52,622 bases of DNA from Vulcanimicrobiota bacterium (GTDB lineage: Bacteria; Vulcanimicrobiota; Vulcanimicrobiia; Vulcanimicrobiales; Vulcanimicrobiaceae). The notes under the pieces were generated by a model. The model did no database searches, was not told the origin of the DNA, and worked only from the letters and a program-made list of their open reading frames with translations. How positions within the stretch are numbered: the stretch's first letter is position 1; every line of letters starts with the position of its first letter. The DNA lies in contig PLFC01000107.1 of NCBI GenBank assembly GCA_003136655.1, forward strand, positions 21,776-74,397, written 5' to 3'. This document shows positions 3,171-12,806 of the stretch, piece by piece. A program made the translations under genes and the position numbers.

Positions 3171-4321
3171 AGGGCTAACGCCAGCGTGGCGTCGAGGGCG
3201 TGGCGCAGGTCGTCGATGAGGTCGTCGGGATCCTCGATGCCGACGGAGAGCCGGAGTAGGCCCTCGGTCACCCCGCGGCGGTCGCGTTCTTCCTTCGGAA
3301 TCGAACCGTGCGTCATACGCGCGGGATGGCAGAGCAGCGACTCGACGCCGCCCAAACTTTCAGCCAGACTGAAGAGTTTGGTTTCCTTGGCAAAGGCGTA
3401 GACGCGCGCTTCCGGGCCGCGCAGCGTCATCGACACCATGCCGCCGAAGAGCCGCATCTGGCGCTTGGCCAAATCGTGTTGCGGATGGCTCGTCAATCCG
3501 GGATAGTACACCGCCGAGACGTCGTCGCGGCCCGCGAGATATTCGGCGACCTCTTGTGCGTTGCGCGAATGTTCGCGCATGCGCAGCGCTAGCGTCTTGG
3601 CGCCCCGCATCACGAGCCAGGCGTCGAGCGGGCCGGGCACGCCGCCGACCGCATTCTGATGGAATTTCACCACCTCGGCTAGCGCCGCGTCGTTGGTGAC
3701 GACGGCACCGCCGATCGCGTCGCTGTGGCCGCCGATGTATTTCGTGGTGGAATAGACGGCGAAGTCGGCGCCGAGCGCGATGGGCGATTGCAGGTACGGC
3801 GTGGCGAACGTGTTGTCGACCGCGACGATCTGACCGGGCCTGCGCAAGCTGGAGATCGCGGCGATATCGGCCAATTTGAGCAACGGATTGGTGGGCGTCT
3901 CGAGCCAGAAGAGTTTGGTCTCCGGCCGCACGGCCGCACGGACTGCATCGAGATCGGTCATGTCTACGTAGCTGAAGGTGAGGCCGTAGCGGGTCAGCAC
4001 CTTCGAGAAGAGGCGGTAGGTGCCGCCGTACAAGTCGTCGCCAACCACCACGTGATCGCCCGATGATAACAGGTTGAGCACCGCCGACGTCGCGGCCATG
4101 CCGCTGGCAAAGGCGCTACAGTACGTCGCGTCGTCGAGAGAGGCGAGTTGCTGTTCGAGCGCCGTGCGCGTGGGATTGACCGTGCGGCTGTAATCGTAGC
4201 CTCGGTGTTCGCCGATGCCGGTTTGGGTGTACGTGGAGGTTTGGTAAATCGGCACGATCGTCGCGCCGGTGGTGGGGTCGGCGTCTTGCCCGGCGTGGAT
4301 TGCACGCGTGCTGAACTTCAT
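3164..4321 (-). CDS. cystathionine gamma-lyase / gamma-synthase (Cys/Met metabolism PLP enzyme)
   Basis: This 385-residue member of the Cys/Met-metabolism PLP family is a full-length homologue. Visible motifs are YSRTVNPTRTALE (about 44-56), the PLP-phosphate region SAFASGMAATSA, the PLP-ring Asp in VAVDNTFATPY, and the Schiff-base lysine in YSTTKYIGGHSD at about residue 194. SLGGVESLLCHPARMTH near the C-terminus fits the substrate-carboxylate-binding Arg region. Gamma-synthase, gamma-lyase and homocysteine-forming activities cannot be separated by eye. The four-base ATGA overlap with the upstream cystathionine beta-synthase gene favours gamma-lyase and reverse transsulfuration (homocysteine to cysteine) over methionine synthesis. 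Confidence 0.9.
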   Translation of the reverse strand: MKFSTRAIHAGQDADPTTGATIVPIYQTSTYTQTGIGEHRGYDYSRTVNPTRTALEQQLASLDDATYCSAFASGMAATSAVLNLLSSGDHVVVGDDLYGGTYRLFSKVLTRYGLTFSYVDMTDLDAVRAAVRPETKLFWLETPTNPLLKLADIAAISSLRRPGQIVAVDNTFATPYLQSPIALGADFAVYSTTKYIGGHSDAIGGAVVTNDAALAEVVKFHQNAVGGVPGPLDAWLVMRGAKTLALRMREHSRNAQEVAEYLAGRDDVSAVYYPGLTSHPQHDLAKRQMRLFGGMVSMTLRGPEARVYAFAKETKLFSLAESLGGVESLLCHPARMTHGSIPKEERDRRGVTEGLLRLSVGIEDPDDLIDDLRHALDATLALALY

Positions 4322-5715
4322 GCGGTCGCTCCGGGCGTCGCGTTGCCCGCGGACAGGAAGGAGATGATGTCTTGGCGCGTCACTACGCCGGCGGGCTTGC
4401 CGTTATCGGTTACGAGAATCGCCGAGTTGGCCAAGCTCAACAGCTTGTAGGCGCGGTCGATGTCGGCGCTGCCCTCGAGTACCGGGAAGGCGCGACCCAT
4501 CACCTCGCGTACCGGCTGATGCAACACGTCCTGCTGCGCGAAGACGGCTTGCATGACGGCGAGTTCGTTGACGCTGCCCACGCACTCGTCGCCGCGCATG
4601 ACGGGCAGTTGCGAGATCTCGTAACGTCGCAGCAGCTCGAGCGCATGCTTCACCACGTCGCTTTCGCTCAAGAAAAGCAACGGCGGCAGCGGCTGTTTGC
4701 CGAGCAGCACGTCGCCGACGGTGGCCGTGCGTTTGCCGTCGGACATGAAGCCGTTGGCGATCATCCACTCGTCGTTGAAAATCTTCGACATGTAGCCGCG
4801 TCCCGAGTCGGGAAAGACGACCACCAGCACCGCGTCTTCGGGCAGCGTCTTGGCCAGTTTCACCGCGGCGACGGCGGCCGTGCCCGACGAGCCGCCCACG
4901 AGCAAGCCCTCTTCGCGTGTAATGCGGCGCGTCATCAAAAATGAATCGCGATCCGAGACGCGCACCATCTCGTCGATCACCTTGAGGTCGACGGTATCGG
5001 GCAGATACGACATGCCGATGCCCTCGACTTTATACGACTTCGGCGTGTCGCCCGAATAGATCGAGCCTTCGGGGTCGGCGCCCACGACGCGGATCGCCGG
5101 ATTCTTTTCCTTGAGGAACCGGGCCGTGCCGGAGATCGTGCCGCCCGTGCCCACGCCGGAAACGAAGTGCGTGATCGTGCCCGCGGTCTGTTCCCAAATC
5201 TCGGGGCCGGTGCTGTGATAATGCGCGTCGGGATTGGCATGGTTGTGCCACTGGTTGGGCATGAAGGCGCCCGGAATTTCGCTGACCAGCCTGTCTGCCA
5301 CGCCGTAGTACGATTCCGGCGATTCGGTCGGCACGTTGGTCGGCGTGATCACCACTTCGGCGCCGTACGCGCGCAAGAGATCGATCTTTTCCTTCGACAT
5401 CTTATCGGGCATCACGAGGATGCAGCGATAGCCGCGGATCGCGGCCGCCATCGCGAGCCCCGTACCGGTGTTGCCGCTCGTTGCCTCGACGATCGTCGAG
5501 CCGGGCCTGAGCAAGCCCTGGCGCTCCGCATCGAGGAGCATGGCGACGGCCGGCCGGTCCTTGACGCTGCCGCCCGGGTTGACGTACTCGACCTTGGCCA
5601 AGACCAGACACTTCGCGCCGTCGATCACCCGGTTGAGGCGGACGAGCGGGGTGCGCCCTACGGCGTCGAGGGCGCTGTCGAAATAGGCGAGGCGACCGGT
5701 TGCGGCAGTGGTCAT
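4318..5715 (-). CDS. cystathionine beta-synthase (PLP domain plus C-terminal CBS pair)
   Basis: The 465-residue protein starts at ATG 5715; the frame is open further upstream, but homology begins here (FDSALDAVGRTPLVRLN). The PLP lysine is in NPGGSVKDRP (about K52), the substrate loop is EATSGNTGTG, and the phosphate-binding loop is GVGTGGTISG. From about residue 340 come two CBS repeats ending VTDNGKPAGVVTRQDIISFLS. A beta-family fold plus CBS pair matches bacterial and eukaryotic cystathionine beta-synthase, which condenses serine with homocysteine; plain cysteine synthases lack the CBS pair. The frame continues into the downstream lyase gene through a four-base overlap. No S-box or other riboswitch was seen in the short region upstream. 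Confidence 0.9.
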   Translation of the reverse strand: MTTAATGRLAYFDSALDAVGRTPLVRLNRVIDGAKCLVLAKVEYVNPGGSVKDRPAVAMLLDAERQGLLRPGSTIVEATSGNTGTGLAMAAAIRGYRCILVMPDKMSKEKIDLLRAYGAEVVITPTNVPTESPESYYGVADRLVSEIPGAFMPNQWHNHANPDAHYHSTGPEIWEQTAGTITHFVSGVGTGGTISGTARFLKEKNPAIRVVGADPEGSIYSGDTPKSYKVEGIGMSYLPDTVDLKVIDEMVRVSDRDSFLMTRRITREEGLLVGGSSGTAAVAAVKLAKTLPEDAVLVVVFPDSGRGYMSKIFNDEWMIANGFMSDGKRTATVGDVLLGKQPLPPLLFLSESDVVKHALELLRRYEISQLPVMRGDECVGSVNELAVMQAVFAQQDVLHQPVREVMGRAFPVLEGSADIDRAYKLLSLANSAILVTDNGKPAGVVTRQDIISFLSAGNATPGATA

Positions 5716-5793
5716 GGGGCCAAGCGTTCTCGCCCGGCACCCAAATCCCATAGCGGGTGAATCCCCGAGCGGGGCCGAGTAGTCCAAGGGGCT

Positions 5794-6147
5794 ATGGCGA
5801 CAGATTTTCGTAGCGGTAAAGACTTCCCACGGCGCGGCCGCGACGAGTACGGCGGCTTCCTCTGGCTCTTGCGGGCAGCCGACAAGGCGCGCGCGGCGGC
5901 GGCCGGCACGATCCACGATTACATCTATCCCTGTCCGATGGACAAGGGCGTGTTCGATCGCTGGGGCATCACCGTCGACGAGTTCGATACGGCGCTCGCC
6001 TCCAACGCGACCGACGAAGCGATCCTGAACTGGCTCAAGTCGCGCGTCGACGACGCGCACCGCGATGCGGCCAATCGCTGGGTGTCCGTCGAAAAGTCGG
6101 CCAACCTCGACCGTCAGGATGCCGAAGAGGGCGTCGTCGCCGCCTGA
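5794..6147 (+). CDS. DUF5069 family protein
   Basis: A 117-residue cytoplasmic protein. The pattern FPRRGRDEYGGFLWLLRAADKARA followed by YIYPCPMDKGVFDRWGI and a final helix NATDEAILNWL matches the DUF5069 family, whose function is unknown. It sits divergent to the cystathionine beta-synthase and 16 bases before a lipoprotein gene. No catalytic motif is apparent; the conserved Pro-Cys-Pro could matter. Confidence 0.8.
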   Translation: MATDFRSGKDFPRRGRDEYGGFLWLLRAADKARAAAAGTIHDYIYPCPMDKGVFDRWGITVDEFDTALASNATDEAILNWLKSRVDDAHRDAANRWVSVEKSANLDRQDAEEGVVAA

Positions 6148-11139: not shown

Positions 11140-11532
11140 ATGAAGTTGTTTTCGCCCGAAAAGGCCAACGCCCTCATTCCGGTGTTGGAACCGCTGATCG
11201 CCGAGTTGTGGGCGAAGCGCCGCGACCTGGCGATCCGGCTGCTGGAAAGCGACCCGGCGCTACGCGCCGGCCGCGGAGGCGGCAACTCGGTGACCAATCC
11301 GGAGCGCCGCAGTGAGGCGCGCCGCAATACCGAACTCAAGGCCGAGATCGTGCGGCTGGTCAATCGGATCGAGGCATACGGCTGCCTGGTCAAGGACATG
11401 GACCTCGGCCTCCTCGATTTCCCGGCCCTCCGCGACGGACGCCCCGTATTTCTCTGCTGGAAAGCAGGCGAAGCCGCCCTGGTGTACTGGCACGGGACGG
11501 ACGAAACATTCCTCGACCGCAAAGCGCTGTGA
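11140..11532 (+). CDS. DUF2203 family protein
   Basis: 130 residues, mostly alpha-helical in the first two thirds: FSPEKANALIPVLEPLIAELWAKRRDL, then a long helix through NTELKAEIVRLVNRIEAYGCLVKD, and a C-terminal beta part DLGLLDFPALRDGRPVFLCWKAGE ending YWHGTDETFLDR. This is the DUF2203 pattern; the conserved YWH/E ending suggests a binding surface, but no function is known. The translation start is ATG 11140. Directly downstream lies the palindromic repeat block, which may double as its terminator. Confidence 0.85.
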   Translation: MKLFSPEKANALIPVLEPLIAELWAKRRDLAIRLLESDPALRAGRGGGNSVTNPERRSEARRNTELKAEIVRLVNRIEAYGCLVKDMDLGLLDFPALRDGRPVFLCWKAGEAALVYWHGTDETFLDRKAL

Positions 11533-11633
11533 TGCGCTGATTTCCTCATACCTTCGTTGCCTTCGGGGCTCGTGTGCAGAGCACACGTCGCCCCTCGGCG
11601 CCTCGGTCTGAGAAAATCATCGCATCACAGCGG
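11525..11633. repeat. long imperfect palindrome, copy 1 (full)
   Basis: About 109 bases whose two halves are nearly reverse complements. The left arm begins CGCTGTGATGCG and ends GCTCGTGTGC; after a three-base AGA loop the right arm begins GCACACG and ends CGCATCACAGCG. The outer 12 bases of each arm pair perfectly and the rest pairs with a few mismatches and one or two bulges, so the RNA or single-stranded DNA could form a hairpin of about 50 base pairs. The left edge overlaps the last codons and stop of the DUF2203 gene. Confidence 0.85.
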
Positions 11634-11655
11634 GACTGGAGGCTCGTGGCTGGGC

Positions 11656-11752
11656 TGATTTCCTCATGCGTTCGTTGCCTTCGGGGCTCGTGTGCGGAGC
11701 ACACTTCGCCCCTCGGCGCCTCGGTCTGAGAAAATCATCGCATCACAGCGGG
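11656..11752. repeat. long imperfect palindrome, copy 2
   Basis: Second copy, in direct orientation. It starts within the left arm at CTGATTTCCTCATG, has the central GTGTGC-GGA-GCACAC stem, and ends CGCATCACAGCG like copy 1. The spacing between equivalent cores of copies 1 and 2 is 118 bases. It differs from copy 1 by scattered substitutions, including T for G just after the core (GCACACTTCG). Confidence 0.85.
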
Positions 11753-11759
11753 TCTGGGG

Positions 11760-11836
11760 GCCCGCCTTCGGGGCTCGTGTGCGGAGCACACGTCGCCCCT
11801 CGGCGCCTCGGTCTGAGAAAATCATCGCATCGCTGC
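11760..11836. repeat. long imperfect palindrome, copy 3 (left arm truncated)
   Basis: Third direct copy, lacking the outer left arm: it opens at GCCCGCCTTCGGGGCTCG, keeps the GTGTGC-GGA-GCACAC core and the full right arm to CATCGCATC. Its core lies 87 bases after that of copy 2. The right end diverges (CATCGCTGCAGG instead of CATCACAGCG). Confidence 0.8.
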
Positions 11837-11865
11837 AGGTCTGGGAGGCCCTGGCCCGGACCCCG

Positions 11866-11968
11866 CGCTGATGGTCTGTTTTCGCCCAGAGCGAGGCGCC
11901 GGTGGGCGAAGTGTGCGCATGCACATGAGCCCTCCGGCAACGAAGCTATGGGCGAAATCAGGGCGTCA
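11866..11968. repeat. long imperfect palindrome, copy 4 (inverted, diverged)
   Basis: A diverged copy in the opposite orientation. Reading it on the minus strand recovers CTGATTTCGCCCATAGC, then TTCGTTGCC, GGGCTCATGTGC, a GCACAC core half, CCGGCGCCTCG, and finally a CAGCG end. The core GTGTGC-GCAT-GCACAT has an extra base in the loop. Three direct plus one inverted copy suggests repeated insertion or local duplication, not slippage alone. Confidence 0.7.
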
Positions 11969-11971
11969 GCG

Positions 11972-12370
11972 CTAGGCGCTGATCTGGGCGGGTTCCACCT
12001 TGATGAAGTCTTCGGCTAGGCCTTGCAGGCGGACGTCACCGAACTCGACGGTGTAGGCGCCGCTGTCGTGACTGCGGACGTCGCCGATTTCGGGCACGGT
12101 GGCCAGCTGCGGAATCTTGGCGCGGATCTCGTCGGGCAGACGAACTTTGTCGCCGACTTCCAGGGCGGGCTGCTCGAAAAGCTTCTCGAGTTCGGCCATC
12201 AACATGTCGAGCGGGATGCCGTATCCCTCGCTGACCTGTTCGACCGTCTCGGTCTCGCTGATGGCACAGTTCGAACAGCCGCCGAGGTGGAACTTGGCGA
12301 ACACGCGTCGCGCGCCGGCGTGCGTCTTGAACGCCTGTTCGACGGTCAGGTCCTTGCTGAAGTGAGCCAA
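11972..12370 (-). CDS. DUF1858-like protein
   Basis: 132 residues from TTG 12370, which is preceded by a good ribosome site (GGGAGA about seven bases upstream); longer frames run back into the rnpB terminator and are rejected. The N-terminal half, DLTVEQAFKTHAGARRVFAKFHLGGCSNC then ETETVEQVSEGYGIPLDMLMAELEKL, matches the DUF1858 fold: a small helical domain with a C-x-x-C at about residues 31-34, also found fused to hybrid-cluster-type proteins. The C-terminal half is a beta-rich domain beginning EVGDKVRLPDE. It may bind a metal or an Fe-S cluster through the cysteines. The role is unknown. Confidence 0.75.
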   Translation of the reverse strand: MAHFSKDLTVEQAFKTHAGARRVFAKFHLGGCSNCAISETETVEQVSEGYGIPLDMLMAELEKLFEQPALEVGDKVRLPDEIRAKIPQLATVPEIGDVRSHDSGAYTVEFGDVRLQGLAEDFIKVEPAQISA

Positions 12371-12382
12371 ACTGGTTCTCCC

Positions 12383-12412: not shown

Positions 12413-12454
12413 GTTACTTCCTCGAACCGGGGCTTCGCTCCCGGAGGTTGCAGC

Positions 12455-12806
12455 GCGGAGTACGCCTGTAAGCCGGATTCTGTACCGCTCGCGCGGTGGC
12501 AGCCATCTATCTGGGGCGGACGTTACCGGCCGCCTCGGTGCGATGTAGCTCGTGTGGGCGGGCCGCCCAGCCCGTACGGGCGGATCGAGCAATCTTGCTT
12601 CGCGTGGGGTTTACCCGGGCGCGCGTCACCGCGACGCCCCGTGAGCTCTTACCTCACGATTTCACCCTTACCCCGACGAGCGGGGCGGTTTGTTTCTGTG
12701 GCACTTTCCTTCGAGTCACCCCGACAGGACGTTATCCTGCACGCTGCCCTGTGAAGCCCGGACTTTCCTCACGCCTCGCGGCGCGCGGCTGCCCGGCGCA
12801 CTCCGC
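12455..12806 (-). ncRNA. rnpB: RNase P RNA, bacterial type A
   Basis: About 352 nt on the minus strand. The universal core is plain: GAGGAAAGTCCGGGCT near the 5' end (P4/CR-I region), CCACAGAAACA, GGGTAAGGGTGAAA, GAGGTAAGAGCTCAC, GGTAAACCCC, and AGATGGCTGCC followed by ACAGAATCCGGCTTA near the 3' end. The termini were set from helix P1: GCGGAGTGCGCC at the 5' end pairs with GGCGTACTCCGC at the 3' end, with a single G-U pair. This is the catalytic RNA that removes tRNA 5' leaders. Confidence 0.96.

Follow-up and report, generated by a model that had tools for sequence, protein, structure and literature searches.

Among the known systems that come closest to the repeat family considered here are the REP, ERIC and BRE sequences of other bacteria. 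REPs are 14 to 40 nt long and in the known cases depend on a RAYT transposase; those of the GTAG type often supply the TAG stop codon of the preceding gene, and hairpins near a stop codon can stall ribosomes or stabilise mRNA (PMC3733652, PMC12306157). Those of E. coli are reported to act on the terminating ribosome when they lie no more than about 15 nt from a stop (PMC12306157), but in that species only 446 of the 4072 predicted REPs lie that close (PMC3733652, PMC12306157). ERIC sequences are imperfect palindromes of about 127 bp, intergenic and transcribed, and in Yersinia their hairpins affect neighbouring mRNAs (PMC2267715, PMC2759123). BRE of Bordetella and Polaromonas, 75 to 91 bp long, include some copies inside genes, and their function is unknown (PMC3110155).

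The locus at issue lies in a genome of the Vulcanimicrobiota, in a stretch of 52,622 nucleotides that is called the window below. A preliminary description had recognised three direct copies and one inverted copy of a long palindrome, with a possible part as terminator, mRNA stabiliser or substrate of a transposase. All four copies are present, and the covariance model gives them coordinates. The starts of the direct copies are 118 and 87 bp apart, with no unique spacers between them, and the view that this is not a CRISPR array stands.

The repeat block and the structure of its unit

The features of the block and of the two genes that face it are as follows.

11140 to 11532, + strand: DUF2203 gene (Pfam PF09969, E 6.3e-29; frame read)
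11525 to 11632, + strand: element 1, an intact hairpin of 108 nt in sense orientation to DUF2203 (model score 97.5 bits)
11643 to 11750, + strand: element 2, the core and right arm of element 1 duplicated in tandem (73.4 bits)
11760 to 11840, + strand: element 3, a tandem duplicate reduced to core and right arm (36.9 bits)
11865 to 11972, - strand: element 4, an intact hairpin in sense orientation to the DUF1858-like gene, which is convergent (100.4 bits)
11972 to 12373, - strand: DUF1858-like gene (open reading frame; Pfam PF08984, E 1.2e-4, which falls short of the curated cut-off)

A gene for bacterial RNase P RNA (class A) lies near the block (12453 to 12804, - strand), and three tRNAs are found elsewhere in the window.

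The block does begin within the last codons of DUF2203, as had been noted: the left outer arm of element 1 contains the stop codon of that gene (TGA, 11530-11532). Element 4 had been taken for a diverged inverted copy. Inverted it is, but it is an independent full element, and the TAG stop of the DUF1858-like gene (11974-11972, - strand) stands immediately 5' of it. Elements 1 and 4 occupy the gap between the two convergent genes.

That each unit could fold as a long hairpin, another early claim, is true of units 1 and 4, with hairpins of about 45 bp, but not of units 2 and 3. As RNA, element 1 folds at -63.7 kcal/mol (z -8.8 against shuffled sequences) and element 4 at -57.7 kcal/mol on its sense strand (-; z -6.8) and -72.2 kcal/mol on the + strand (z -9.6). 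Elements 2 and 3 (z -1.5 and -0.55) fold no better than shuffles because the left outer arm is missing; in element 2, 93% identical at its 118-bp spacing, that arm is no longer complementary, and the model match to element 3 covers only the core (11760-11809). Both units repeat the core and right arm of unit 1 followed by its downstream sequence, GG(T/A)CTGG(A/G)GGC, at 118 and 87 bp, and for this reason they are local tandem duplicates. A copy lacking its left arm had been read as a sign of rearrangement, but these local duplicates do not speak for transposition. The block is two intact copies plus two damaged tandem duplicates of one hairpin.

About 108 nt long, the unit is a hairpin whose core has three internal loops that are fixed, and it ends in a short apical stem. 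The core internal loops (TTCGTTG / CTCRTG...CACKTCG / GCGCCTCG) are conserved in the groups of both phyla in which the family was found, while the stem between base and core is variable in sequence and always paired. Compensatory changes between homologous units, which the preliminary description had named as a mark of a functional hairpin family, are plentiful. Over 18 sequences RNAalifold finds 37 pairs, 30 of them with changes on both sides, and in an alignment of 60 sequences from the two phyla all 26 of 26 pairs show two-sided compensatory changes. There, 89% of cells pair, against 60% after shuffling, and the covariation score reaches 0.686; shuffles give 0.181, and sliding the register gives no more than 0.18. 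A palindrome can serve as template for its own correction, which mimics compensation, and this could add to the signal. The conserved mismatched, unpaired loops, which correction would not preserve, argue against its being the whole cause. A T-G (as RNA, U-G) wobble pair in the core is also kept, in 16 of the 18 sequences, which favours action at the level of RNA. The element is a sequence family whose structure is shown by covariation.

Sense orientation and anchoring at stop codons

A blastn search found one further copy in the genome of the window, directly after nusG, and copies in nine relatives. The outer arms of the nusG copy are entirely different in sequence yet still complementary. 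Model R1, a home-made model whose E-values are rough and which was run on genomes that are mostly MAGs, gives 14 matches in the genome of the window (G000) and, of 98 relatives sampled (Ca. Eremiobacterota/Vulcanimicrobiota), matches 48, all of them in families f1 and f2, which belong to the same order. The suggestion of a dispersed, REP-like palindromic family was in this respect sound. Family f3 of the class, represented by 14 genomes, gave no R1 match, and neither did 19 other members of the phylum. A record titled Rhodospirillales probably bears a misnomer, given that its single match resembles the element of G015, a member of family f1. Under fuller scoring, G011 has 89 matches, which come down to about 60 to 70 distinct places because antisense echoes of the same palindrome are included, and G016 and G042 have 24 each. 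Copy number per genome ranges from 0 to about 70. The block has no gathering-level match in Rfam 15, where permissive matches are at chance level only. Carriage by viruses was considered and rejected: IMG/VR holds no exact match to the long pattern, and the short pattern is matched exactly in one contig.

In five genomes, 72 of 91 elements have a sense open reading frame of at least 80 codons whose stop falls at -25 to +10 of the element start, a count independent of gene calling. The mirrored antisense count at the other end comes to 30 of 91. Placed at random between genes, an element would have such a sense frame in 12.7% of draws, a rough guide only, as the null drew on existing gaps of at least 108 bp. 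The tightness of the offset is a stronger point than the comparison with random placement: most stops are at -6 to +1 or at exactly -15. In 740 kb of G011, where genes were called with a home-made program, every element is outside the genes. Of the 40 matches listed, which include a few partial tandem copies, 35 have an upstream gene on the same strand. Many elements occupy convergent gaps. The stops themselves are rich in TAG (38 TAG, 21 TGA and 13 TAA, compared with 184, 259 and 171 genome-wide in G011). Pairing is found in 93% from the first base after the stop and in about 50% within the stop codon, and it is near background beyond about 8 bases upstream. Reading of the frames gives element-bearing genes that I take to be rpsD, atpD, superoxide dismutase, groES and groEL, along with nusG, a list suggesting well-expressed genes.

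The same arrangement recurs in a second phylum. A pattern scan led to a MAG titled Betaproteobacteria (JAAFJI; G101) with 15 model matches, and 18 of 40 genomes drawn as its relatives also have matches. In this betaproteobacterial group a sense frame ends at the element start in 27 of 31 loci (three of them from G101), two or three of the 27 (L236 to L238) looking spurious or tRNA-adjacent. Judged by their C-termini, the frames upstream of the three matches examined in G101 presumably encode ribosomal protein S9, a phasin-like protein and dCTP deaminase. Two weak matches (L236 in G110 and L237 in G117) seem to stand directly after the 3' end of a tRNA gene and not after a protein stop.

At groES and groEL the element has been retained over the long term in this one group. 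A stop-anchored element is clear after groEL in 11 of the 13 genomes whose groESL locus was read, with altered forms in the other two. It follows groES in 9 of 12, and two of the remaining three carry an antisense copy there. All nine groES orthologues have their V-(Q or T)-K codons and the stop paired with the 3' arm, and the arm changes as the codons change: position 5 is TA, GC or CG, positions 6 and 7 are CG and AT or else AT and CG, and position 8 pairs as GC, GT, CG or AT. The pairing partner of a hairpin arm is here protein-coding sequence. The element fills most of the gap between the two genes (132 to 158 nt, and 246 nt in G116), leaving only about 35 to 60 nt to the groEL start in most genomes. 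The antisense copies between groES and groEL are L279 (G116), L280 (G106) and L281 (G109), that in G116 lying beside a sense copy.

Could the element be a terminator, as had been proposed? Its place at gene 3' ends, its sense orientation, its strong hairpin and the many convergent gaps would suit one. However, no U-tract directly follows the hairpin (the T fraction over the next 24 positions is 0.16 to 0.33), and groES and groEL need a common transcript; these two facts together mean that it is not a standard intrinsic terminator. Canonical terminators follow many copies within 200 nt downstream (23 of 91 elements, against 7.5% of sampled genes, a control that includes operon-internal genes). 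An unconventional terminator, free of a U-tract or served by a protein that recognises the core loops, would have to meet the same objections, and I regard it as improbable. Readthrough of the stop codon was also rejected: the frame stays open for at least 100 nt after the stop in 28 of 72 cases, against 52% of controls.

Another view is that the palindrome acts as DNA, as a site for nucleoid proteins or gyrase or for recombination, with the hairpin forming in single-stranded DNA. Long palindromes can extrude in DNA, and REP/BIME offer precedents in the literature. But there is no reason at the DNA level for so strict a relation to the strand and stop of the upstream gene, nor for pairing with its codons, and the conserved wobble pair favours RNA. 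A DNA-level element seems to me very improbable. The strict sense orientation at stops, the conserved internal-loop core, the codon pairing and the second phylum all go beyond what the preliminary description contained.

Spread, loss and the search for a mobiliser

The family is not static. Sequences flanking elements in G042 and G043 have counterparts in the congeners G009 and G012 that lack the element, and at seven loci the relative keeps the homologous stop position and has a short spacer of its own where the element sits. Gain or loss between congeners falls exactly at stop codons. Truncation of the upstream protein by insertion, considered at first, was discarded, as the native stop position is kept at the compared loci. 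The nearest neighbour of a copy is in the same genome in 85% of cases, against 26% when shuffled, and these empty sites and this clustering together indicate turnover of the family and its spread within genomes.

The nusG site carries the element only in G000 and G011, while relatives with identical NusG lack it, and the notion of a conserved nusG site was rejected accordingly. This absence, with the patchy copy number, means that the element is dispensable at most genes. On contig C50 of G000 (L007, 3869-6162) a peptidase-like gene (4242-6017) lies between nusG and rplK, after the nusG element. In genus g18 (L016 in G017:C4; L013 and L025 in G054) a derivative of the core seems to recur in tandem, in units of about 80 nt, and not as stop-anchored single copies.

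What moves it? The REP-associated tyrosine transposase that had been anticipated is not there: the Y1/RAYT domain (PF01797) is absent from every element-bearing f1 or f2 genome sampled, G000, G011, G014, G016, G029, G042 and G043 among them. In family f1 it occurs only in G019 and G026, both without the element. A reverse transcriptase was likewise rejected as mobiliser, occurring in only 2 of 29 genomes and not in G011. As regards a MITE, palindromic ends and empty sites were observed, and no parent transposon with the same ends was found in 740 kb of G011. Matches there that resemble an arm but lie away from the elements look accidental, and extra copies of core or arm adjoin full elements.

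Model R2 also matches dispersed palindromes of gammaproteobacteria, which have the core in common and are not at stops. Some matches there are at stops, after groEL in G252 and after a frame resembling nuoF in G315. Palindromic repeat families at L256 (G149), L261 (G352) and L257, L259 and L262 to L268 share the core loops and lie off stop codons; their flanks resemble GTAACTA...TAGTTAC or AACCCGAAGGGAC...GTCGC. It is possible that they are mobile relatives of the element. With palindromes off stops and some at stops, the family may descend from a mobile palindrome co-opted at gene ends.

One might then suppose that the element is selfish, a MITE-like or REP-like sequence that some enzyme inserts at stops as a safe site and that does nothing for its host. 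The clustering of copies by genome, the clean empty sites at seven loci, the wide range of copy number and the near-identical palindromes off stops in gammaproteobacteria all speak for this. It is opposed by the absence of Y1/RAYT from the element-bearing f1 and f2 genomes sampled, by the finding of a reverse transcriptase in only 2 of 29 genomes and of no longer transposon in 740 kb of G011, and by the conserved unpaired loops, the arms that track codons and the retention at groES and groEL, which imply selection on the structure. A purely selfish element strikes me as unlikely, albeit a contender to be taken seriously.

A proposed role and comparison with known systems

I propose that the element belongs to a family of RNA hairpins, about 108 nt long, that form at the 3' ends of protein-coding mRNAs and there act as a barrier to decay or on the terminating ribosome. 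I think this fairly probable, judging from the sequences compared. The possible role in mRNA suggested at the outset is thereby kept. I infer action as RNA from the strand bias and the covariation, and it is favoured by the sense bias, the codon pairing, the conserved unpaired loops and the conserved U-G pair.

The mechanism would run as follows. The base of the hairpin would consist of the stop codon, joined in many copies by the codons just before it, and the downstream arm with which they pair. Working in a 3'-UTR or between cistrons, the hairpin would block 3'-to-5' decay of the upstream message, affect a ribosome terminating inside its base, or both. A conserved factor would read the core internal loops. 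By some copying route the element would spread to new gene ends within a genome, and it would decay through tandem duplication, as in the window. A bolder version makes the element a clamp on the stop codon, a new class of cis-acting RNA that takes the stop and last codons into a long hairpin, whose conserved loops bind a dedicated factor and which couples termination to the fate of the message, shared across phyla by horizontal transfer or deep ancestry. I offer this tentatively, as something that may be so but on balance probably is not.

The element is a large and apparently uncatalogued structured element with overwhelming covariation, found in a poorly known phylum and a betaproteobacterial group. 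It provides a sharp, testable case of how a stop-codon hairpin is selected and spreads to new genes. If action as RNA is borne out, it would be a new element for control at gene 3' ends and could serve as a genetic part.

How does it stand beside the known systems? The MIRU of mycobacteria are short repeats at stop/start junctions, oriented with transcription; unlike the element they are not long hairpins, and the two are not known to be related. ERIC and the element are alike in an apical TCA-stem-CTC layout. Homology to ERIC was nonetheless rejected: E. coli ERIC is not matched by R1 or R2, and with filters off the best score is 5.6 bits, in the apical stem only. Between ybhI and ybhJ of E. 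coli (L271) an ERIC starts at most a few bases from the stop codon of ybhI; the ERIC downstream of pgk (L273) is not so placed. BRE resemble the element in being GC-rich, intergenic, prone to tandem duplication and betaproteobacterial, although at about 90 bp they are shorter, a comparison made by description only (PMC3110155). The BRE of Bordetella are a possible nearest relative.

REP/BIME and the element are both dispersed, extragenic palindromes enriched at gene 3' ends (PMC3733652, PMC12306157). A position anchored at the stop is known in some REP families (PMC3733652), and anchoring for that reason does not by itself prove a translational role. The element differs from REP in its length of about 108 nt, its three fixed internal loops, its strong sense bias, the roughly 80% of copies anchored at stops and the lack of RAYT. 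Its size and the missing RAYT place it outside the REPs; in position it resembles them, and probably in effect as well.
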